Of a DNA stretch of 64,000 nucleotides, positions 9,072-18,381 are shown piece by piece; position 1 is the first letter of the stretch, and each line of letters opens with the position of its first letter. Below the pieces are notes generated by a model. It did no database searches and was not told the DNA's origin. It was given only the letters and a program-made list of their open reading frames with translations. Source of the stretch: Chelativorans salis (GTDB lineage: Bacteria; Pseudomonadota; Alphaproteobacteria; Rhizobiales; Rhizobiaceae); the NCBI RefSeq assembly GCF_025336525.1, contig NZ_JAOCZP010000005.1:248001-312000 (forward strand), given 5' to 3'. The translations under genes were made by a program, and so were the position numbers.

Positions 9072-9680
9072 CTAATTGCTTGCTGGAACCGCGGTGGCGG
9101 CAACATCCTTGCCGCGAAACACACGAACGCTCCTTACCCCGCCATCTCCTTCCGACAGCAGCCCTAGCGCCTTCTTGACGGCTGCGATATAGGCCGGAGG
9201 CCCGGAAACGGACATGAGGTTGTCATCCTCCATGAGCCGGATCGGGAAGCGCGGATTGCTTATTCCCACCCTTTCCAGGCGCGCGCGCATGGAGCGCATT
9301 TCCTCGGTCGCAAGCTTCACCATTTCGGTACGAAGCTCGCTTTCCGCCGCGATATGGAGGACTGCGCCGTCATAGTACCAGACAAGTCCGTACCGGTCGC
9401 AGATCCACGTCAGAAATTCACGGGCCGTGCCGATCGGCATACCATGGCTCAAGCGCCCCTCGACGCGGTCGCTCACCCTGACCGGCAGGCCGACGTTGCG
9501 CCCGAACTCCTGCAGGGCCTCCGACACCCTCTGGTCGATCGGGATGTATGTATAAATGCCCGCGGGCCACTCCGGCTCCGCCGCGATCGCCTGTATCCCG
9601 GCTACACAAAACCACAGACCCACAAGCAGGCCAATTGCCCTATGGTGACGATGGCGCATCTTGCCGACGGTGAAGTTCAT
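9072..9680 (-). CDS. sctC1: T3SS secretin N-terminal half SctC1 (RhcC1/NolW-like)
   Basis: The product carries only the N0/N1-type periplasmic domains of a T3SS secretin (IYTYIPIDQRVSEALQEFG, LPVRVSDRVEGRL, LTWICDRYGLVWYYDG, LMEDDNLMSVSGPPAYIA) and stops before the pore domain. Rhizobial systems split the secretin in this way into RhcC1 (NolW) and RhcC2. I prefer ATG 9680, which gives a signal peptide (AIGLLVGLWFCVAGIQAIAA). The frame is open to 9770, but that part looks like untranslated leader. It is the first gene of the minus-strand operon. A motif shared with the sctD operon lies 82-127 bases upstream. Confidence 0.88.
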   Translation of the reverse strand: MNFTVGKMRHRHHRAIGLLVGLWFCVAGIQAIAAEPEWPAGIYTYIPIDQRVSEALQEFGRNVGLPVRVSDRVEGRLSHGMPIGTAREFLTWICDRYGLVWYYDGAVLHIAAESELRTEMVKLATEEMRSMRARLERVGISNPRFPIRLMEDDNLMSVSGPPAYIAAVKKALGLLSEGDGGVRSVRVFRGKDVAATAVPASN

Positions 9681-9737: not shown

Positions 9738-9807
9738 ACTATAGCGCTCCTCGCCAAAAGAAAAGTCCATTTGGACTGCGCAGATTAAATAGGTTCCATT
9801 TGTTGCG
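9738..9807 (-). promoter_or_regulatory. Bipartite T3SS promoter motif, copy A
   Basis: Read on the plus strand, 9762-9775 is AAAGTCCATTTGGA and, after exactly 18 bases, 9794-9807 is TTCCATTTGTTGCG. The same pair with the same 18-base gap occurs at 12511-12556, oriented identically relative to its T3SS operon. TCCATTTGGA is palindromic. On the minus strand a possible -10 (TATAGT, 9738-9743) lies downstream, before sctC1. LysR or RpiR from the same island are the natural candidate binders. Confidence 0.65.
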
Positions 9808-9876
9808 CACGGGCAGTAATTGTGCTGGTAACGACTTCGTTGATTCCGTTGCCCGCGACGATGGGAGCGCCGGCAG

Positions 9877-10584
9877 ATGATATGTGAAGGCCTTCAACAG
9901 ATTGTCGGGGCGTTTGCGCGCAGGCATCGCTCGGGAACGGCAGGAATCGTCCGGCTTTCCCCGTTGGTGACGCTGCTCATAGCCATGTTTGCAGCGTCGC
10001 ATCCCGGCGCGCTTGCCCAGTCGGGCGCCTATGATCCGAGGACCTGGGCCTTCGATTCGGACGCACGGAGCCTCTTGCCGCCCGGTGAGACGAGCGCTCA
10101 AACCGCGTTTTTGCGGCAACCGGACTTGCAGCCGATTGTACGAGAAATCGTCACATTCAGCGAGCCGCAGCCGCCCGGCACGATTGTCATCAGCACGTCA
10201 CAACGGCGACTTTACTATGTGCTTGGAAACGGCAAAGCGCTGAAATATGCCGTCGGTGTCGGCAAAGAGGGCTTCAGTTGGAGCGGCCAGCACCACATCA
10301 CAAACAAGCGAAAGTGGCCGGACTGGCGCCCGCCGGAGGAAATGCGGCGGCGAGAGGCGTGGCACGGTCGCGTTCTTCCCGCTTTTGTCAAGGGCGGACC
10401 GAACAATCCGCTGGGCGCCCGTGCACTTTATATCGGCGACACCCTCTGCCGGATCCACGGCACAAACGCGCCTTGGACTGTCGGGCAAGCGACGTCATCG
10501 GGTTGCATTCGCATGGCCAATGAGGATGTGATCGATCTGTATGAAAGGGTGTCGATGGGCGCTAAGGTGGTCGTCAGACACTGA
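9877..10584 (+). CDS. L,D-transpeptidase (YkuD family), canonical active site
   Basis: A 235-residue exported enzyme with an N-terminal hydrophobic signal (VTLLIAMFAASHPGALAQ) and a C-terminal YkuD domain. L,D-transpeptidases form 3-3 peptidoglycan cross-links or attach proteins to peptidoglycan in the periplasm. The core is complete: IHGTN with the catalytic histidine, then SSGCIRM with the nucleophilic cysteine and arginine. The gene diverges from sctC1 and sits inside the T3SS island, suggesting local cell-wall remodelling during assembly. That role is inference. The ATG follows a GGGAG-like site. Confidence 0.92.
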   Translation: MICEGLQQIVGAFARRHRSGTAGIVRLSPLVTLLIAMFAASHPGALAQSGAYDPRTWAFDSDARSLLPPGETSAQTAFLRQPDLQPIVREIVTFSEPQPPGTIVISTSQRRLYYVLGNGKALKYAVGVGKEGFSWSGQHHITNKRKWPDWRPPEEMRRREAWHGRVLPAFVKGGPNNPLGARALYIGDTLCRIHGTNAPWTVGQATSSGCIRMANEDVIDLYERVSMGAKVVVRH

Positions 10585-10615
10585 CCCAATTATTCTCTTG
10601 CGGTGACAGGTATTT

Positions 10616-11551
10616 GTGGGCGCCGTGATCTCCTTCAACATCAAGCAGCTCGATACTTTTTTGTGGGTGGCCACGCTGGGCAGCTTTCGCAAGGCGGCCG
10701 AGCGGCTGAACACGACCCAGCCGGCCGTTTCGGCACGGATCGCCAGCCTGGAGAATGCGCTGGGCGTGCAGCTTTTCGAGCGCATGAGCAATACCGTTCG
10801 CCTGACGGCAATGGGGCAGCAGCTTCTGCCTCTTGCGCAACGCACGCTGCGCACAGCCGACAAGCTGCAGCGCGCAGCCAACACGCTGGCAACAGTCAAC
10901 GGCGTTCTCCGGCTGGGCGTTGCCGAGACCATCGTCCACACCTGGCTATCCGATTTCCTCCGGGAATTCGACAAAAGCTATCCGCTCGTCGATGTTGATC
11001 TGGTCGTCGATGGCACACTCGCGCTACGCAGCGATCTCCTGTCGCATCGGCTCGACATAGCCGTTCTCATGGGACCGGTGTCGGAATACCGCATCGAAAA
11101 CGTGAACGTGCCGTCTTTCCCGCTGATATGGGTCTGCGCGCCGCACCTCGACCTGCCGGAAACGCGCGTATCCCTCCGCGAATTGCTGCGGTTTCCGGTC
11201 ATCTCCTACGCGCGCGCCACGCGTCCCTATAGCGAGCTCTATCACAAGCTCAGCGCAGACGCGGACGACGCGCCGCGAACGTTCCCGGCCAACTCGCTGG
11301 CGGCCTCGCTGCGCATGACGATGGACGGCATCGGCATCGCCGTCCTGCCCCTGGATGTTGTGCGAGATCATATAGCCAGGGGAGAGCTGCGAAAGATCGA
11401 TTGCGAATGGCAGCCGTCCGACCTGCAGTTCACCGCCTCATTCTTCCTGGAACCGGTCAATCCTATTGCCGAGCATGCGGCGCAGCTGGTGGCCGAAGTT
11501 GCCGAGGCCTATGCAGCGAAACACCATCTGAGGACCGCCGAAACGGCGTAA
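10616..11551 (+). CDS. LysR-family transcriptional regulator in the T3SS island
   Basis: A 311-residue LysR protein. The N-terminal winged helix (FNIKQLDTFLWVATLGSFRK, AAERLNTTQPAVSARIASLE) is followed by a substrate-binding domain beginning GVLRLGVAETIVHTW. It starts at a GTG 5 bases after an ACAGG sequence, 31 bases behind the L,D-transpeptidase, and is likely co-transcribed with it. Lying between the two main T3SS operons it may regulate them, although no TtsI or NodD homologue is seen. It closely resembles the LysR pseudogene at 24.1-24.9 kb. Confidence 0.9.
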   Translation: MGAVISFNIKQLDTFLWVATLGSFRKAAERLNTTQPAVSARIASLENALGVQLFERMSNTVRLTAMGQQLLPLAQRTLRTADKLQRAANTLATVNGVLRLGVAETIVHTWLSDFLREFDKSYPLVDVDLVVDGTLALRSDLLSHRLDIAVLMGPVSEYRIENVNVPSFPLIWVCAPHLDLPETRVSLRELLRFPVISYARATRPYSELYHKLSADADDAPRTFPANSLAASLRMTMDGIGIAVLPLDVVRDHIARGELRKIDCEWQPSDLQFTASFFLEPVNPIAEHAAQLVAEVAEAYAAKHHLRTAETA

Positions 11552-11584
11552 TCCTTCCGTCTGCGAACTCGGCAGTTTGACCCA

Positions 11585-12451
11585 TCAGGAACTCCAATAG
11601 ACATCAAGGGCGGAGAGCCGCGCCTTCGCCTCTTGCAAGGCCTGTTCCACGTCAATGCCCCGCCTTGCTGCAACCAGCGCCGCGAGGATTTCCGCCGCTG
11701 CCATGGCCGATACCAGGCTCTGAAAACCCACGAGCGAATGCGTCGTAACAATGATGCTCTGGCGCGCAATGCGCGCCAGCGGGGAAACCTGACTGTCCGT
11801 GATCGCCACGACGGCGATATCGAACGCGGCCGCCTGCCGGGCGATCTCCACCGTCGCTCGGGTGTAGGGCTCGACTCCGACCGCTAGCATCACGTCCCCC
11901 GAACCGCCTTGCCCAAGGTTGTCGATGCCGGTTCCGCCCACCGCGTCCAGGAGTGTTGCCTGCTCGTCGAAAAGCGAAAGCGTCTGGTTGAAATGGTGCG
12001 CCACCGCATGCTCCGAGCGCAAGCCTAAGCAAAACAGACGGCGCCCACCAGCGAGCACATCCGCAGCGGCCATCAGTTGCCTGGCGGCTCCATAGTCGCC
12101 GAAACGCGCCACCTGCGCGGCCAGTGTGTCGGACATGCGGCCGACCAAGGAAAAGCCGCCCTGCTCCGCATCTTCTCCCTCCGAAAGGCCGGGCACCTCG
12201 AAGTTCCGGTGCGCTTCTCGCAACCCCCTTGCGTAGAGCGCGCGCATTTCCTCGTAGCTGTTAAGACCCAGCGACCGCGCCAACCGCATCATCGTACTGT
12301 GCGATACACCCGCTCGATTTGCCTGCTCGCGCATCGACATCAGCGCCACGTCGTCGGGATGATCGAGCACGAAGCGGCTCGCCATCTGCAACTGTGGTGG
12401 CATCGAATCGAAACGTTCGAGCAGTAGCTCTGCCAAAGGCCCTTGTTTCAT
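11585..12451 (-). CDS. RpiR-family regulator (HTH plus SIS domain)
   Basis: A 288-residue protein with an N-terminal RpiR helix-turn-helix (MPPQLQMASRFVLDHPDDVA, NRAGVSHSTMMRLARSLGL) and a C-terminal SIS sugar-phosphate-binding domain (LFCLGLRSEHAVAHHFNQTL, VVAITDSQVSPLARIA). RpiR proteins sense phosphosugars. ATG 12451 is preferred because AAGGGG lies 9-10 bases upstream. A GTG at 12478 would add 9 residues. It faces away from the needle-candidate/sctD operon and shares its upstream region with it, so it is a candidate binder of the palindromic TCCATTTGGA motif. Confidence 0.9.
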   Translation of the reverse strand: MKQGPLAELLLERFDSMPPQLQMASRFVLDHPDDVALMSMREQANRAGVSHSTMMRLARSLGLNSYEEMRALYARGLREAHRNFEVPGLSEGEDAEQGGFSLVGRMSDTLAAQVARFGDYGAARQLMAAADVLAGGRRLFCLGLRSEHAVAHHFNQTLSLFDEQATLLDAVGGTGIDNLGQGGSGDVMLAVGVEPYTRATVEIARQAAAFDIAVVAITDSQVSPLARIARQSIIVTTHSLVGFQSLVSAMAAAEILAALVAARRGIDVEQALQEAKARLSALDVYWSS

Positions 12452-12510
12452 TTGTCCATACCCCTTGCCCATTCCCACATTACGTCTTGGTCCACGTCAA
12501 TGCAACGGAA

Positions 12511-12582
12511 CGCAGCGAATGGAATTTAGGAAGCGTGAAAGTTCCAAATGGACTTTAACTTTTAACATTGCTGACCTAAGAT
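12511..12582 (+). promoter_or_regulatory. Bipartite T3SS promoter motif, copy B
   Basis: The plus strand carries CGCAGCGAATGGAA at 12511-12524 and, 18 bases later, TCCAAATGGACTTT at 12543-12556, the reverse complement of copy A near sctC1. A possible -10 (TAAGAT, 12577-12582) follows at -35/-10-like distance, 78 bases before the needle-candidate start. The near-identical elements and equal gap indicate one regulator controlling both T3SS operons. The RpiR gene lies immediately on the other side. Confidence 0.65.
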
Positions 12583-12660: not shown

Positions 12661-12822
12661 ATGGCCTCAGAAGCAGAATCCATCGCCAACGCTGTTCAGG
12701 ATTACAAGAAATCCTCGAATGAAGTCATGAAATGGCAAACCGAGCTTTCAAAGGCACAACTTGTTGGCCAGTTTGCGATCGGCGCCAAGTCCAAAGAGGG
12801 CGATGTCGCCCAGAAGGTCTAA
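12661..12822 (+). CDS. Small 53-aa protein, candidate T3SS needle subunit (SctF)
   Basis: A 53-residue helical protein starting at ATG 12661, 6-7 bases after AAGGAGCG. Its sequence (ANAVQDYKKSSNEVMKWQTE, LSKAQLVGQFAIGAKSKEGD) contains two short amphipathic helices, like needle subunits, although it is shorter than the usual 70-85 residues. It is the first gene behind a conserved T3SS promoter motif and lies upstream of sctD. I have no diagnostic motif, so SctF is a hypothesis. The 63-aa gene at 8870-9061 is the alternative. Confidence 0.6.
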   Translation: MASEAESIANAVQDYKKSSNEVMKWQTELSKAQLVGQFAIGAKSKEGDVAQKV

Positions 12823-12937: not shown

Positions 12938-13939
12938 ATGGCGCAGGAGTTGGCGAGACTGGTTGATCGGGTGCGGGACACGGAGCTTATCCGCCGCATT
13001 TCTCACTGCATGCCGCGTCTGAATCATGGTTCAGACGCGACGGAGGCGCCTGAGCCGCACATCGCGCTCGAGGTGATCGGCGGGCTCCACGCCGGAGCGA
13101 AACTGGACCTCACCGAGACGATTTTCACGGTCGGGTCGAGTGTTGACGCCGACATCGTTCTTAGCGACCCCGAGATTGCGGACACTCATGGCCGGTTTCG
13201 CGTTGTGGGCGGTCGGGGGGAACTGGAGGCACTGGGAGGCGCCATCGGCCTTGCAAATGGTCAAACCGTGCCTGAGGGATATGGGCGCCGCTGCCGGTTA
13301 CCGCTGGAAGTATCAATCGGTGGCGCGACGATACGGCTGACCGACACGAGTCCCGCCTACCCGGCGAAAAAAATCGTCTCGAGCCGTTCCATGATGATCG
13401 CGGCCGGTCTGGTCGCCACGATTTTTGCCGTTCCAGTCGCCTCCAACACGTTGTCGCAGATAAAGCCCGAGGTAAGTAGTGGGACGGCCGTCGAGGTTGC
13501 GGAAGCAGTCGGACCGGATTCAGCCGGCCAGTCGGACATGTTGATTGAAGGGCAGGCGAAAAGTGCGCTTGAGAGCCATTTGGCACAGGCCGGCATCAAC
13601 AGCCTCGATGTGGCGGCGGCACCGGGTCGGCTGGTGGTTTCGGGAAGCATCACCGATCATCAGGTCGGAGCCTGGCGCGCGGCCCAGGCTTGGTTCGATA
13701 AGGAACAACGGGGACGCCCCGTCCTTATCTCCAATGTCGCCGTCGGCAACAGCACCGAGGCGCCACGACTTCCCCTCCGGGCGATCTGGTACGGTGAGGG
13801 CCCCTACATCATAACCGCCGATGGCGCCCGCTATCATGAGGGGGCATTCGTCAGCGGCGGCTGGATCATCAAGGAGATCGGTAAAGAACAGCTCCTTCTG
13901 GCGAAAGGCGAAGCCGTGGTGGCGCTGAAATATCAATGA
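12938..13939 (+). CDS. sctD: T3SS inner-membrane ring protein SctD (FHA type)
   Basis: SctD forms the outer ring of the inner-membrane base. The 333 residues show an N-terminal cytoplasmic FHA-like domain (about 45-130, with GGLHAGAKLDL, FTVGSSVDADIVLSDPEIAD, THGRF), one transmembrane helix near residues 148-168 (MMIAAGLVATIFAVPVAS) and a periplasmic ring-building domain (LDVAAAPGRLVVSGSITDHQ). A GGGAG ribosome binding site precedes the ATG. The ATG of the next gene overlaps its stop. Rhizobial clusters carry the corresponding gene (y4yQ) just upstream of rhcV, as here. Confidence 0.9.
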   Translation: MAQELARLVDRVRDTELIRRISHCMPRLNHGSDATEAPEPHIALEVIGGLHAGAKLDLTETIFTVGSSVDADIVLSDPEIADTHGRFRVVGGRGELEALGGAIGLANGQTVPEGYGRRCRLPLEVSIGGATIRLTDTSPAYPAKKIVSSRSMMIAAGLVATIFAVPVASNTLSQIKPEVSSGTAVEVAEAVGPDSAGQSDMLIEGQAKSALESHLAQAGINSLDVAAAPGRLVVSGSITDHQVGAWRAAQAWFDKEQRGRPVLISNVAVGNSTEAPRLPLRAIWYGEGPYIITADGARYHEGAFVSGGWIIKEIGKEQLLLAKGEAVVALKYQ

Positions 13940-14370: not shown

Positions 14371-14707
14371 AATGCGCGACGCGGTGCAGTTGCTGCATAC
14401 TCTCGGCTACCTCTATGGCAGCCACGGTCAGGTGAAACGGGGCGTAGCCTACCTGCTGATCGCGGTGCAGTTGTCGCCCGATGATCCCGGCCTCCTGCGC
14501 ACGCTTGCACACTTGCTCGTACGCGATGGCGACGCCGAAAAGGCCCTCGCCACCATCGACCGCTTGGAGACTATGGACGATATGGCAAGCCATCCCGCGC
14601 TCGCACTGCTGAAAAGCCGGGCCCTGCTTCTAAGTGGGCGCATGGAGGAGGCGCGCAGAACTTTCCAAACTTTTCTCGCCGGAAGCAGGAATCATCCCCG
14701 TGCTTGA
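14357..14707 (+). CDS. SctG/Y4yS-like helical-repeat T3SS accessory protein
   Basis: A 116-residue all-helical protein with two TPR-like repeats (LLHTLGYLYGSHGQVKRGVA, LLRTLAHLLVRDGDAEKALA). Rhizobial clusters carry a TPR protein (y4yS) next to rhcV, and YscY/SctG-type chaperones bind SctV-associated partners. A TTG at 14357 overlaps the upstream gene by 14 bases. An ATG at 14372 gives a slightly shorter protein and is a real alternative, because no well-spaced ribosome binding site decides. The stop overlaps the sctV start by 8 bases. Confidence 0.75.
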   Translation: MSLTEMRDAVQLLHTLGYLYGSHGQVKRGVAYLLIAVQLSPDDPGLLRTLAHLLVRDGDAEKALATIDRLETMDDMASHPALALLKSRALLLSGRMEEARRTFQTFLAGSRNHPRA

Positions 14708-16862
14708 CCGCATCACCCCCGTGTTGGCCAATCTGTCGCGCCGTAGCGATCTCGTCATCGCCAGCTTGATGCTCGTCGCTGTGACGATGATGTTGATCCC
14801 GCTACCGACCTGGCTCGTCGATATCCTCATCACCGCCAACATCGCCGTCAGCGTGCTGATCCTTCTTGCAGCATTCTACATCGCACATCCGCTGCAGTTC
14901 TCGTCGCTGCCTTCCGTCATCCTGATCGCCACGCTGTTCCGGCTGTCCATCACGATCACCACAACCCGCCTCATCCTGCTCCAGGCCGACGCCGGACAGG
15001 TCGTGACGGCTTTTGGCGATTTCGTCGTCGGCGGCAGCTTAGCCGTCGGCCTCGTGATTTTCCTCATCATCACCGTGGCGCAGTTCGTGGTGATCGCTAA
15101 AGGCTCCGAGCGCGTGGCGGAAGTGGCCGCGCGCTTCACGCTGGATGCCATGCCCGGCAAGCAGATGAGCATCGATGCCGAACTGCGGAACGGCGACATC
15201 GATCAAGCCGAGGCCCGCCGGCTGCGAAGGCGCCTTGAGCATGAAAGCCAGCTCTACGGCGCCATGGATGGCGCTATGAAGTTCGTCAAGGGCGATGTCA
15301 TTGCCGGCATCGTCATCATCGCGGTCAACCTGATAGGCGGCTTTGCCATCGGTACGCTGCAGCACGGCATGTCGATCGCCCAGGCGATGCACACCTATTC
15401 GCTACTGACGGTAGGCGACGGACTGGTGGCGCAAATCCCTGCCCTTCTGGTGGCCGTTGCGTCGGGGACCATGATCACACGCGTCACCGGCGGCGACGAT
15501 CAAAGTGATCTCGGGCGTCAGATCACGGGCCAGTTGCTGCGGGACGGCCGCACGCTTACTTCGGGCGCGGTTATCCTCATTGCCTTGAGCCTCGTGCCGG
15601 GCTTCCCCTCCGCCGTATTCCTCGTTTTGGGCATCGCCATGGGCGCGGGAGCCTATGGCCTTTACCGCAAATCCCGCAACGAGGAGATCGTCGACCTCAC
15701 GCCCTTGTCCACCTCCGCGCCCGCGCAGGCTCGCGATAACGGAATTGATGCGCTCGAGACACGGGAGCAATTGGCCCTCCCCCTGCTGCATCGCGTGGTT
15801 GTGCGGTTGGGCCGAGATCTTGGTGAGCTTGTCTCATCCACGGATTTCGCAAAGGAAAGTCAGCGCGTTCACCAAGACATTCTCGAGGACCTCGGTATCG
15901 AGACACCGGCGATCGCATTGCATATCGATGACAAACTCGATCCCCAGCGTGTGCGCATGGACCTGGAAGGCGCGCCGATCCTCACCGTCGACATTCCAGC
16001 CGATCGCGTGCTCCTAGAGGCTGATCCTTCCCATCTCGATCTCCTGGATATCGCCTATGAGGAAGGCTCGCCCATCGCAGGCTGGCGCAAGCCAATCTGG
16101 GTGGAGAAGAGCCACACGCCTCAGCTGGACGAGGCGCGTCTGCTTTTCCTTTGGCCGATCGAGATTGTTTGCCGATCCGCCGAGCACGCGCTGCGCTCCT
16201 ATGCCAACCATTTCATTGGAATTCAGGAAACGAGGCGGCTGCTTTCCTCGCTCGAGGGAGACTACGCCGATCTTGTCCGGGAAGCGCAGGAAATGGTGCC
16301 GCTGCAGAAGATCTCCGAGGTTCTGCGCCGGCTCGTCGCCGAGAACATCCCCATAGGCAATCTGCGCATCATTTTGGAGGCGCTTGTGGAATGGGGTCAG
16401 CGCGAAAAGGAACCGGCTCTGCTGACCGAGCACGTGCGGATCGCGCTGAAACGGCAGATCACCTTCCGCCTGGCCGATCGCAACAATATCATCGCCGCCT
16501 ATGTGTTGCAGCCATCGGCCGAGGAAGCATTAAGGGCGGCGGTGAAAAATACACCCGGCGGCGGCTCCGTCAACATGGCCGACAATGGAGTTCAGTTCAT
16601 CGTCGAACAGATCGAGCGTGCGCTCTCAAAGACGGCGGCCGACGCGGCGCCTGTCGTTTTAACGGCGATGGATGTGCGCCGCCACATGCGCAACCTTCTC
16701 ATGCAAAGGCAAATCAATCTGCCGGTCTTATCGTATCAGGAGCTTGCGCACGAATTCCACGTTCAGCCGCTTGCGACGATTACCAGCCGGCAACGCGACG
16801 CCGGGACAAGGCCGCAGCCAAAATCACTGCCGGCAGCGCATACGCCGGCGACACAATCTTAG
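14700..16862 (+). CDS. sctV: T3SS major export apparatus protein SctV (RhcV)
   Basis: SctV (FlhA/LcrD family) forms the nonameric export gate ring. The 720 residues have N-terminal transmembrane helices starting with VIASLMLVAVTMMLIPLPTW, the FHIPEP-family signature RFTLDAMPGKQMSIDAELR, and a soluble cytoplasmic domain from about residue 345 on. GTG 14700 is preferred because it overlaps the preceding stop (GTGCTTGA) with AGCAGGA upstream. The in-frame GTG at 14634 would add 22 residues that belong to the preceding gene's sequence. Confidence 0.96.
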   Translation: MLDRITPVLANLSRRSDLVIASLMLVAVTMMLIPLPTWLVDILITANIAVSVLILLAAFYIAHPLQFSSLPSVILIATLFRLSITITTTRLILLQADAGQVVTAFGDFVVGGSLAVGLVIFLIITVAQFVVIAKGSERVAEVAARFTLDAMPGKQMSIDAELRNGDIDQAEARRLRRRLEHESQLYGAMDGAMKFVKGDVIAGIVIIAVNLIGGFAIGTLQHGMSIAQAMHTYSLLTVGDGLVAQIPALLVAVASGTMITRVTGGDDQSDLGRQITGQLLRDGRTLTSGAVILIALSLVPGFPSAVFLVLGIAMGAGAYGLYRKSRNEEIVDLTPLSTSAPAQARDNGIDALETREQLALPLLHRVVVRLGRDLGELVSSTDFAKESQRVHQDILEDLGIETPAIALHIDDKLDPQRVRMDLEGAPILTVDIPADRVLLEADPSHLDLLDIAYEEGSPIAGWRKPIWVEKSHTPQLDEARLLFLWPIEIVCRSAEHALRSYANHFIGIQETRRLLSSLEGDYADLVREAQEMVPLQKISEVLRRLVAENIPIGNLRIILEALVEWGQREKEPALLTEHVRIALKRQITFRLADRNNIIAAYVLQPSAEEALRAAVKNTPGGGSVNMADNGVQFIVEQIERALSKTAADAAPVVLTAMDVRRHMRNLLMQRQINLPVLSYQELAHEFHVQPLATITSRQRDAGTRPQPKSLPAAHTPATQS

Positions 16863-17058: not shown

Positions 17059-18381
17059 ATGATATTTTCTGGTACCGCGGCAGGCCTTTGCCGCATGGCC
17101 CGGCTCATGGAGTGCTGGAGCCTGCACCGGATTGCGGCCGCTTTGGCGGCCTTGTTCATTGTTGCGTTCGGCGAGGCGGCACAGGCGCAGACGAGCGCAC
17201 CGGGCGGACAGGTCGACCTTCATGTCGGACAGGGCCGCATCTTTCGCTTCGAGCAACCGGTGGAATCGGTTCTTATCGCGGATACGAGCGTGGCCGATCT
17301 GCAGATCGTATCCGCGGATGTGATCTATGTTTTCGGCCTCAAGCCCGGCACCACGAACCTGATCGCCGTCAGCGCGAACCAGCAGGTTGAAGCTTACATG
17401 CAGCTCCAGGTAAGTGCTGACAGCGCTGCCGCGGCGGCGGCGGCCAACAGGCTTCAGCCGACCTCGATGACCGAACTGACCTTCCTCGGCGATCGCATTG
17501 TGGCACTCGGTCGGGTGCGCGACATCGGCGAGGCTGTCGATATCGACAATGTCGCGCGCTCGCATTCGCCCTCCGATCAGCCGCCACTCAACAACACCAT
17601 CATCGACGGGTCCCAACAGGTGAACATCCGCGTTCGTTTTGCGGAGGTCTCGCGATCCGAACTGCAGGCCTACGGCCTTGACTGGAATGTGACAGTGACC
17701 GACGGCAGCTTCAACTTCGGGCTTTTAAACAACGTCGGCGATCCCAATCTTGGTTTCGGCATCGGAGCTGGCAATGTGAACATCGAAGTCCTCCTGGAAG
17801 CCCTCCAGCGCAACGAGATCGTTAAGATTCTCGCCGAACCGAACCTCACGGCCGTCAGCGGTCAAACGGCGAGTTTTCTGGCCGGTGGAGAAGTCCCTGT
17901 TCCAATACCGCAGGGCAACGACACGATCGCGGTCGAATACAAACCCTTCGGTGTGTCGCTCCGCTTCACACCCACATTGATTGGCAATAACCGCATTGCC
18001 CTCAATGTTCGGCCGGAGGTCAGCACGCTTTCCGACAGCGGAGGCGTCTCCATTGACGGCCTTTCGCTTCCTAGCTTCGTTGTCCGCCGCGCCGACACCA
18101 CCGTGGAGGTGGCAAGCGGCCAGACATTTGCGATCGCCGGTTTGTTCCAGCAACGGTTGACGCGCAATCTTCAGAAGGTTCCCGTGCTGGCAGACGTGCC
18201 CGTTCTTGGAGCTCTTTTCCAGTCTCAACGCTATCAGAGGCAAGAGACCGAACTGGTGATTCTGATTACGCCACATCTGGTGAATCCCGTCAGCGGCGGG
18301 CGGCTGGCCACCCCCCTCGACAGGCCCGCGCCACAGCCGCGGGCGAAAAACACCACCGGTATCGGCTTGATTGTGAAATAA
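17059..18381 (+). CDS. sctC2: T3SS secretin C-terminal half SctC2 (RhcC2), CpaC-like
   Basis: A 440-residue outer-membrane secretin. The signal peptide (AAALAALFIVAFGEAAQAQ) is followed by a pilus/CpaC-type N-domain (GQVDLHVGQGRIFRFEQPVE, SVLIADTSVADLQIVSADVI, VFGLKPGTTNLIAV). The secretin pore domain follows (VKILAEPNLTAVSGQTASFL AGGEVPVPIP; VPVLADVPVLGALFQSQRYQ; ETELVILITPHLV). ATG 17059 has a GAGAGGGGAA ribosome binding site. Together with SctC1 it would supply a split secretin. The N-domain and the lipoprotein behind it resemble Tad pilus CpaC and CpaD. Confidence 0.9.
   Translation: MIFSGTAAGLCRMARLMECWSLHRIAAALAALFIVAFGEAAQAQTSAPGGQVDLHVGQGRIFRFEQPVESVLIADTSVADLQIVSADVIYVFGLKPGTTNLIAVSANQQVEAYMQLQVSADSAAAAAAANRLQPTSMTELTFLGDRIVALGRVRDIGEAVDIDNVARSHSPSDQPPLNNTIIDGSQQVNIRVRFAEVSRSELQAYGLDWNVTVTDGSFNFGLLNNVGDPNLGFGIGAGNVNIEVLLEALQRNEIVKILAEPNLTAVSGQTASFLAGGEVPVPIPQGNDTIAVEYKPFGVSLRFTPTLIGNNRIALNVRPEVSTLSDSGGVSIDGLSLPSFVVRRADTTVEVASGQTFAIAGLFQQRLTRNLQKVPVLADVPVLGALFQSQRYQRQETELVILITPHLVNPVSGGRLATPLDRPAPQPRAKNTTGIGLIVK

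Follow-up and report, generated by a model that had tools for sequence, protein, structure and literature searches.

We describe a 64,000-nucleotide stretch of the Chelativorans salis genome (assembly GCF_025336525.1, contig NZ_JAOCZP010000005.1, positions 248,001 to 312,000; hereafter the window) that carries a type III secretion system (T3SS) and, upstream of both main T3SS operons, the same bipartite DNA element. Judged by comparison with relatives, this element is a real, conserved, and T3SS-specific double site, and the 14+14 bases of each copy appear to represent two operators, which we term O1 and O2. Each copy probably serves the RpiR-type protein encoded at 11585-12451 as a double operator; this protein would bind O1 and O2, activate both T3SS operons, and shut off its own gene. 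The two copies are as follows.

9762..9807, plus strand: element 1, between sctC1 and the unit formed by the L,D-transpeptidase (LDT) gene and lysR; O1 core TCCATTTGGA at 9766-9775, 18 bases, O2 TTCCATTTGTTGCG at 9794-9807.
12511..12556, minus strand: element 2, in the gap that separates rpiR from the needle-sctD-sctV operon; O1 core at 12543-12552, O2 at 12511-12524.

Element 1 reads AAAGTCCATTTGGA at 9762-9775, 18 bases, and TTCCATTTGTTGCG at 9794-9807 on the plus strand, and element 2 reads AAAGTCCATTTGGA at 12556-12543, 18 bases, and TTCCATTCGCTGCG at 12524-12511 on the minus strand, the two second halves being equal at 12 of 14 bases. Both copies have the same orientation relative to their own operon, which runs leftwards from sctC1 in one case and rightwards through the needle candidate, sctD, and sctV in the other. 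An original prediction made from the letters of the window had described two copies with the same sequence, gap, and orientation, and they are present exactly as claimed; the -10-like hexamer that it placed after each copy is there as well (TATAGT at 9743-9738 on the minus strand, TAAGAT at 12577-12582 on the plus strand). The exact 18-base gap holds for both window copies but not as a fixed rule, and a strict N18 gap was dropped, since O1-O2 centre distances of 28-30 bp occur among relatives.

The source genome comprises 5.66 Mb in 19 contigs, with the window on the contig that we label C15 (genome label G000). Within the window, the pattern TCCATT-N22-TTCCATT at up to two mismatches has two matches, both exact; shuffled windows give a mean of 1.0 matches at the same tolerance and 31 of 100 reach two, so that the window-only count is not significant by itself. 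Counting 14+7-base composites with more than one exact copy in the window gives 115 k-mers at five places, namely the inverted element pair and the direct repeats 24974/49583, 25060/62182, and 35214/37966. The first two of these repeats share one place near 25 kb, and the direct repeats are possibly parts of mobile elements. Sequences simulated from the dinucleotide frequencies of the window contained no recurring composite in 18 of 20 cases and one in the other two. Across the whole genome, a 39-base pattern at up to three mismatches finds only three sites, not many unrelated ones, all of them on contig C15 (reversed control, 0); the third lies 24.6 kb left of the window, at C15:223351-223389.

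Among 61 genomes, its own included, the 39-base pattern has matches in five (G000, G001, G007, G039, and G042), and its reversed control has one match, in G050. G001 and G007 belong to the same genus and carry a close copy of the window T3SS, with SctV 73 and 70% identical, and G039 and G042 have one match each, at three mismatches. O1 alone (RAAGTCCANNTGGA) occurs at 24 sites in nine genomes, with 16 for the reversed control; 17 of the 24 are at the two T3SS elements, one is the third site found in the source genome, and six are elsewhere. In a sample of 397 genomes of the order, an exact search for TCCANNTGGA-N18/19-TCCANNTGTTG returned nine sites in seven genomes and none for the reversed control. 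All nine are at a window-type T3SS, either upstream of sctC1 or in the rpiR-needle operon intergenic region. Three of the seven genomes are Labrys, and the region of G234 is near-identical to one in Labrys sp. KNU-23. The genome-wide, 397-genome, and simulation counts rule out a chance origin, the window-only shuffle count not being decisive, and plain repeats or mobile-element ends are likewise ruled out, as O1, O2, and the promoter columns are kept between species while the remainder varies.

A search with eight RpiR sequences yielded 59 loci in named genomes, of which 41 were used and 18 excluded; the 41 overlap in part with genomes G001, G007, G157, G186, G284, G301, and G345. In every one of the 41 loci, where rpiR is divergent from the sctD/sctV genes of a window-type T3SS, the element lies 5' of rpiR, with one G within O1 in L079. 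The distance from the O1 start to the rpiR ATG is 92-96 bp in 39 of these loci and 123 bp in two. On the other side of the system, O1 lies 5' of sctC1 in all 11 genomes read (the window, G001, G007, G284, G301, G345, L095, L069, and three Labrys), accompanied by a clear O2 in seven and by an O2 one base off in L069. This T3SS lineage is found in Chelativorans, Mesorhizobium, Nitratireductor, Aquamicrobium, and Labrys, and genomes from two GTDB families contain both the element and RpiR. RpiR is missing from three related T3SS loci, those of NGR234 pNGR234b, Phyllobacterium zundukense, and Rhizobium johnstonii (SctV 48-51% identical to that of the window), and the 34 kb read of each contain no element. 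Conservation of the element in relatives supports the earlier proposal of a single island regulator for both operons.

The following genes and predicted promoters surround the two copies.

9072..9680, minus strand: sctC1, which encodes the N-terminal half of the split secretin; its match to the Pfam N0 domain is under the cut-off.
9738..9743, minus strand: predicted -10 of the sctC1 operon, TATAGT, assigned from the sequence.
9877..10584, plus strand: LDT (YkuD), divergent from sctC1.
10616..11551, plus strand: lysR, a regulator with HTH_1 and LysR_substrate domains; the disfavoured candidate binder.
11585..12451, minus strand: rpiR, a regulator with HTH_6 and SIS domains, its ATG start at 12451 in agreement with relatives; best candidate binder of both elements.
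12477..12505, minus strand: predicted rpiR promoter, TTGCAT at 12505-12500, 17 bp, TAATGT at 12482-12477, assigned from the sequence.
12577..12582, plus strand: TAAGAT, the predicted needle-operon -10, likewise assigned; it lies 34 bp from where O1 starts.
12661..12822, plus strand: the gene that opens the rightward operon, a needle candidate of 53 aa without a Pfam match.
12938..13939, plus strand: sctD (YscD family, Y4YQ_C domain).
14634..16862, plus strand: sctV.

Comparison with relatives resolves O1 as TCCA-NN-TGGA within GTCCA..TGGAC/A and O2 as TTCCA-NN-TGTTGC. We aligned 44 rpiR-side elements (43 loci plus the window) that had been picked with a pattern fixing most O1 letters and the TCC of O2; invariance of those letters is therefore by construction, and the other O2 letters, CTTTCATTT, and the -10 were left free beyond ACTT(T/C). 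In the freely varying columns, the remainder of O2 is kept and O1 is followed by CTTTCATTT. Counted from the O1 start, the -10 columns are T at +34 in 43 of 44 rows, A at +35 in 38, and T at +39 in 38. The centres of O1 and O2 are 29 bp apart in 40 rows, 28 in three, and 30 in one. The best -35 match at the needle-side promoter (spacer 16-18) is poor, with three of six bases in 38 rows and four of six in four (n=42). From the assigned -10, we infer a start site that places the O1 centre near -41.5 and the O2 centre near -70.5. Most sctC1-side elements have (T/G)ATAG about two bases nearer than the needle-side -10, with GATAAT in Labrys and GGTAGG in L095 at about the same place. In most rpiR-side rows, O2 leads into TTGC(A/G)T, 17 bp, and TAxxxT, with the right half of O2 as the -35 of what is likely the rpiR promoter.

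Several lines of comparison point to RpiR as the protein that reads this element. The window RpiR has an N-terminal HTH_6 and a C-terminal SIS domain, both over the Pfam cut-off. Its residues R56 and R70, the presumed DNA-contacting arginines, are invariant in eight of eight sequences. By sequence, the nearest full-length relative with a solved structure is 4ivn, which we take to be a NanR and in which both positions are matched by arginines; we equate them with NanR Arg56 and Arg67 by helix position rather than by direct alignment. The genus also has an RpiR paralogue on the chromosome (about 42-44% identical), whose own -35 is covered by the palindrome TGCAACA-NN-TGTTGCA. This palindrome occurs once each in 11 of 16 genus genomes (reversed control, 0), and all 11 sites lie directly 5' of the paralogue gene. 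The right half-site of O2 (TGTTGC) and the NN spacer are common to the element and the palindrome, and the paralogue has a similar own promoter (TTGCA(T/C), 17 bp, TAGGAT-like, by eye). The paralogue differs in having the full TGCAACA palindrome and a (Q/R)PWTMTR recognition helix in place of the SHSTMMR found here. Examples are seen at L040-L048 and G000:C9:437091-437995, where the paralogue is divergent from a putative enzyme gene, presumably of the BKACE type. In a tree of RpiR proteins with 68 rows, the 42 T3SS-linked rows need one change when set against seven chromosomal rows (100/100), and the 19 ungrouped rows may fall inside the T3SS-linked group. On balance, the tie between the element and RpiR is well supported by comparison.

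The proposed mechanism follows the layout of the two sites. RpiR dimers would assemble into a tetramer via their SIS domains and hold O1 and O2 together, and the pairing of a full palindrome with a weaker partner 28-30 bp away fits the tetramer-bridging picture of Streptococcus pneumoniae NanR. Bound RpiR would recruit RNA polymerase to the T3SS operons and would shut rpiR or, at the other copy, the LDT-lysR unit; the state of the regulator would depend on a phosphosugar or similar ligand bound by the SIS domain. We favor activation of the T3SS operons because O1 lies beside a poor -35, and autorepression because O2 lies across the rpiR -35. Activation is the weaker half of the claim, because the NanR preprint states that all other reported RpiR regulators are repressors (PMC12713135).

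The same double site could instead serve an RpiR that keeps the T3SS operons repressed, with release by a sugar phosphate, an arrangement that we regard as rather unlikely. It would agree with the RpiR proteins reported to date, most of which are repressors (PMC12713135), and the position of O2 over the rpiR -35 in most relatives, like that of the paralogue palindrome over its own -35, matches an autorepressor layout. An O1 centred near -41.5, however, would sit beside rather than across the promoter and, together with the poor -35s, fits an activator better than a repressor.

The original prediction had named RpiR and LysR as alternative candidates, and the Labrys genomes separate the two. 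Promoters of LysR-type regulators usually have a recognition site near -70 and an activation site near -40, so that O2 and O1 resemble them in position and would take these respective roles were LysR the binder. LysR orthologues, 64-75% identical, also accompany the T3SS in six of nine genomes searched, which counts against our assignment, as does the degenerate sctC1-side O2 of the three Labrys genomes that lack LysR. In these three, no LysR orthologue was found (best-scoring matches 32-35% and partial), nor any lysR in the stretch between LDT and the giant gene. The element is thus not accompanied by LysR everywhere: all three Labrys genomes keep rpiR, the full needle-side element in its exact form, and both O1 sites. 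Moreover, the full palindrome is proximal here, the reverse of the usual LysR layout, and the right half-site of O2 recurs at rpiR paralogues. A LysR-type binder is accordingly improbable, and LysR was dropped as first-choice binder after the three Labrys genomes were found to keep the element without it. RpiR is preferred because the LysR-less Labrys keeps the element, the paralogues share a half-site, and the RpiR-less T3SS loci lack the element. Least probable is a regulator encoded outside the island, which sits poorly with the joint occurrence of the element and RpiR in two GTDB families and the absence of both from three of three related T3SS loci.

The assignment to RpiR has further points to contend with. 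Because rpiR and the element are neighbours, joint inheritance accounts for part of their co-occurrence, and the TGTTGC half can be explained in part as the rpiR -35. In the window itself, element 2 departs from its relatives in a decayed O2 right half (CGCTGCG), and TTGCAT lies 10 bp beyond O2, unlike most relatives, in which the hexamer is inside O2. Given this decay and the degenerate Labrys sctC1-side O2, it appears that O2 is not strictly required in its usual form. RpiR paralogues are also present in G006, G013, and G014, where the exact palindrome is missing. No O1 was found within 250 bp upstream of the rpiR relatives with an SHSTM or SHTTM helix in L074-L078, L094, L112, L120, L123, L125, and L126, which suggests that the recognition helix by itself fails to predict the site. 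The sequence TCCANNTGTTGCA has 17 sites in 16 genomes, fewer than its reversed control (34): three at T3SS elements, four beside the rpiR paralogue, and ten elsewhere. Next to the paralogue TGTTGCA is a conserved CTCC that may serve the divergent gene for ribosome binding, so the comparison was limited to the TGTTGCA half and the NN spacer.

RpiR-type activators have some precedent. The title of its paper describes GlaR as one (PMC6528599). Salmonella AsiR is reported to activate flhDC (PMC7808427). Pneumococcal NanR is described in a preprint as an RpiR-type activator with a ligand-stabilised tetramer, proposed to bridge two sites, an 18-bp palindrome and, 23 bp from it, a half site (PMC12713135). 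The window system resembles it in pairing a helix-turn-helix with a sugar isomerase domain and an even-centred near-palindrome with a weaker second site tens of bp off. Unlike the window RpiR, NanR governs sialic-acid catabolism in a Gram-positive bacterium, recognizes another half-site, and has no secretion system under it; its second site is 23 bp downstream, whereas the one here is 28-30 bp upstream. The IolR operator of Caulobacter and relatives, also read by an RpiR family member, is given as GGAA-N6-TTCC (PMC2597717). The GGAA/TTCC half-sites are alike, but their order is reversed here, with TTCCA-N2-TGGA in place of a 6-bp gap, and an IolR-type operator was rejected.

Among secretion systems, the closest functional parallel is TtsI, a single activator that serves separate Rhc-I T3SS operons through a shared tts box, according to a 2014 review (PMC3973906). 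Both systems have a shared promoter motif at separate T3SS operons. They differ in the candidate regulator, here RpiR, and in that sctC1 has the element, whereas in the Rhc-I clusters that the review names rhcC1 lacks a tts box (PMC3973906). The window contains no tts-box-like match at up to three mismatches, with a hand-written pattern and no search for the ttsI gene, which agrees with the prediction that TtsI is not the regulator. Rhc family traits are evident in the secretin, which is split into sctC1 (9072-9680) and sctC2 (17095-18381), and SctV is 48.5% identical to that of NGR234 pNGR234b and 45.6% to that of R. etli IE4803 (pairwise identities only). The Rhc-II system of Sinorhizobium fredii NGR234, T3SS-II, shares the split secretin and a similar gene set with an L,D-transpeptidase, but neither RpiR nor the element is present in the 34 kb read. 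Its regulation is described as independent of flavonoids and TtsI and acting via other elements; the review also reports Rhc-II and Rhc-III systems to be without detected tts boxes or ttsI genes, other regulation being likely (PMC3973906).

Our literature search, by title or abstract start, found nothing on the window-type T3SS, and none of the titles and abstract starts searched, which cover few subscription-journal papers, reports an RpiR protein as a dedicated T3SS regulator. A named protein and DNA site, together with the natural control offered by genomes without LysR, make regulation of this T3SS lineage directly testable. If RpiR activates, it would do so as an uncommon case in a family known chiefly for its repressors. 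More tentatively, a metabolic RpiR may have been captured as the master switch of a TtsI-less T3SS, with one O1-O2 tetramer turning the T3SS on and rpiR or LDT-lysR off while reading a cell-wall or host-derived sugar phosphate. Were this true, and with the 17-kb LysM gene behind the third site added, injection would hinge on sugar or cell-wall state in several Hyphomicrobiales genera.

At that third site (C15:223351-223389), O1 is exact and O2 weak, with TACAAT 33 bp from the O1 start. It is followed by a 17-kb open frame at C15:223643-240892, with a well-placed ATG at C15:223643, that encodes about 5,749 aa. The protein has a LysM domain in its N-terminal part and a C-terminal SH3 match under the Pfam cut-off, and each of its two ends shows a relationship to the giant proteins encoded after rpiR in G001 and G007; it may be a T3SS substrate or surface partner. 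The site rests on the full pattern (three mismatches, control 0), TACAAT, and the giant gene, O1 alone being insufficient.

The 18 excluded loci fall into several groups. Mesorhizobium L074-L078 have an RpiR (56-58% identical) near a different T3SS (SctV 42-43%), shortly after its sctV, and no intact element. L094, L096, and L106 have rpiR and partial sites with no T3SS in reach; L108, L115, and L124 have rpiR and a like element, again with no T3SS in reach. At L124:10001-10865, rpiR reads in two frames, and the like element is still there with no T3SS gene found within the locus. L112, L119, L120, L122, L123, and L125 contain rpiR relatives without this T3SS in reach. L126 has a window-type T3SS, with a 38% RpiR placed elsewhere. 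In this locus, from Nitratireductor pacificus, which is without an orthologous RpiR but has the 38% one nearby, an O1-like site is found at the needle gene instead: in the region L126:887-1330, TCCAATTGGA stands at the usual distance from TAACGT and before a small gene 5' of sctD. Pattern matches at L073:6497, L082:3045, L123:10973, L126:12974, L036:8006, and L170:28974 were set aside, as they are not at promoters of this system.

Two more RpiR paralogues lie on contig C15 of the window's genome, both to the left of the window. At C15:215001-221591, another giant gene (N-terminal part), a Fic-domain gene (DUF4172 and Fic), and an RpiR paralogue (41%) run in one direction. At C15:243579-244391, an RpiR paralogue 45% identical to the island RpiR has the palindrome AAATCCATATGGATTT about 1.6 kb off, at C15:242002-242017.

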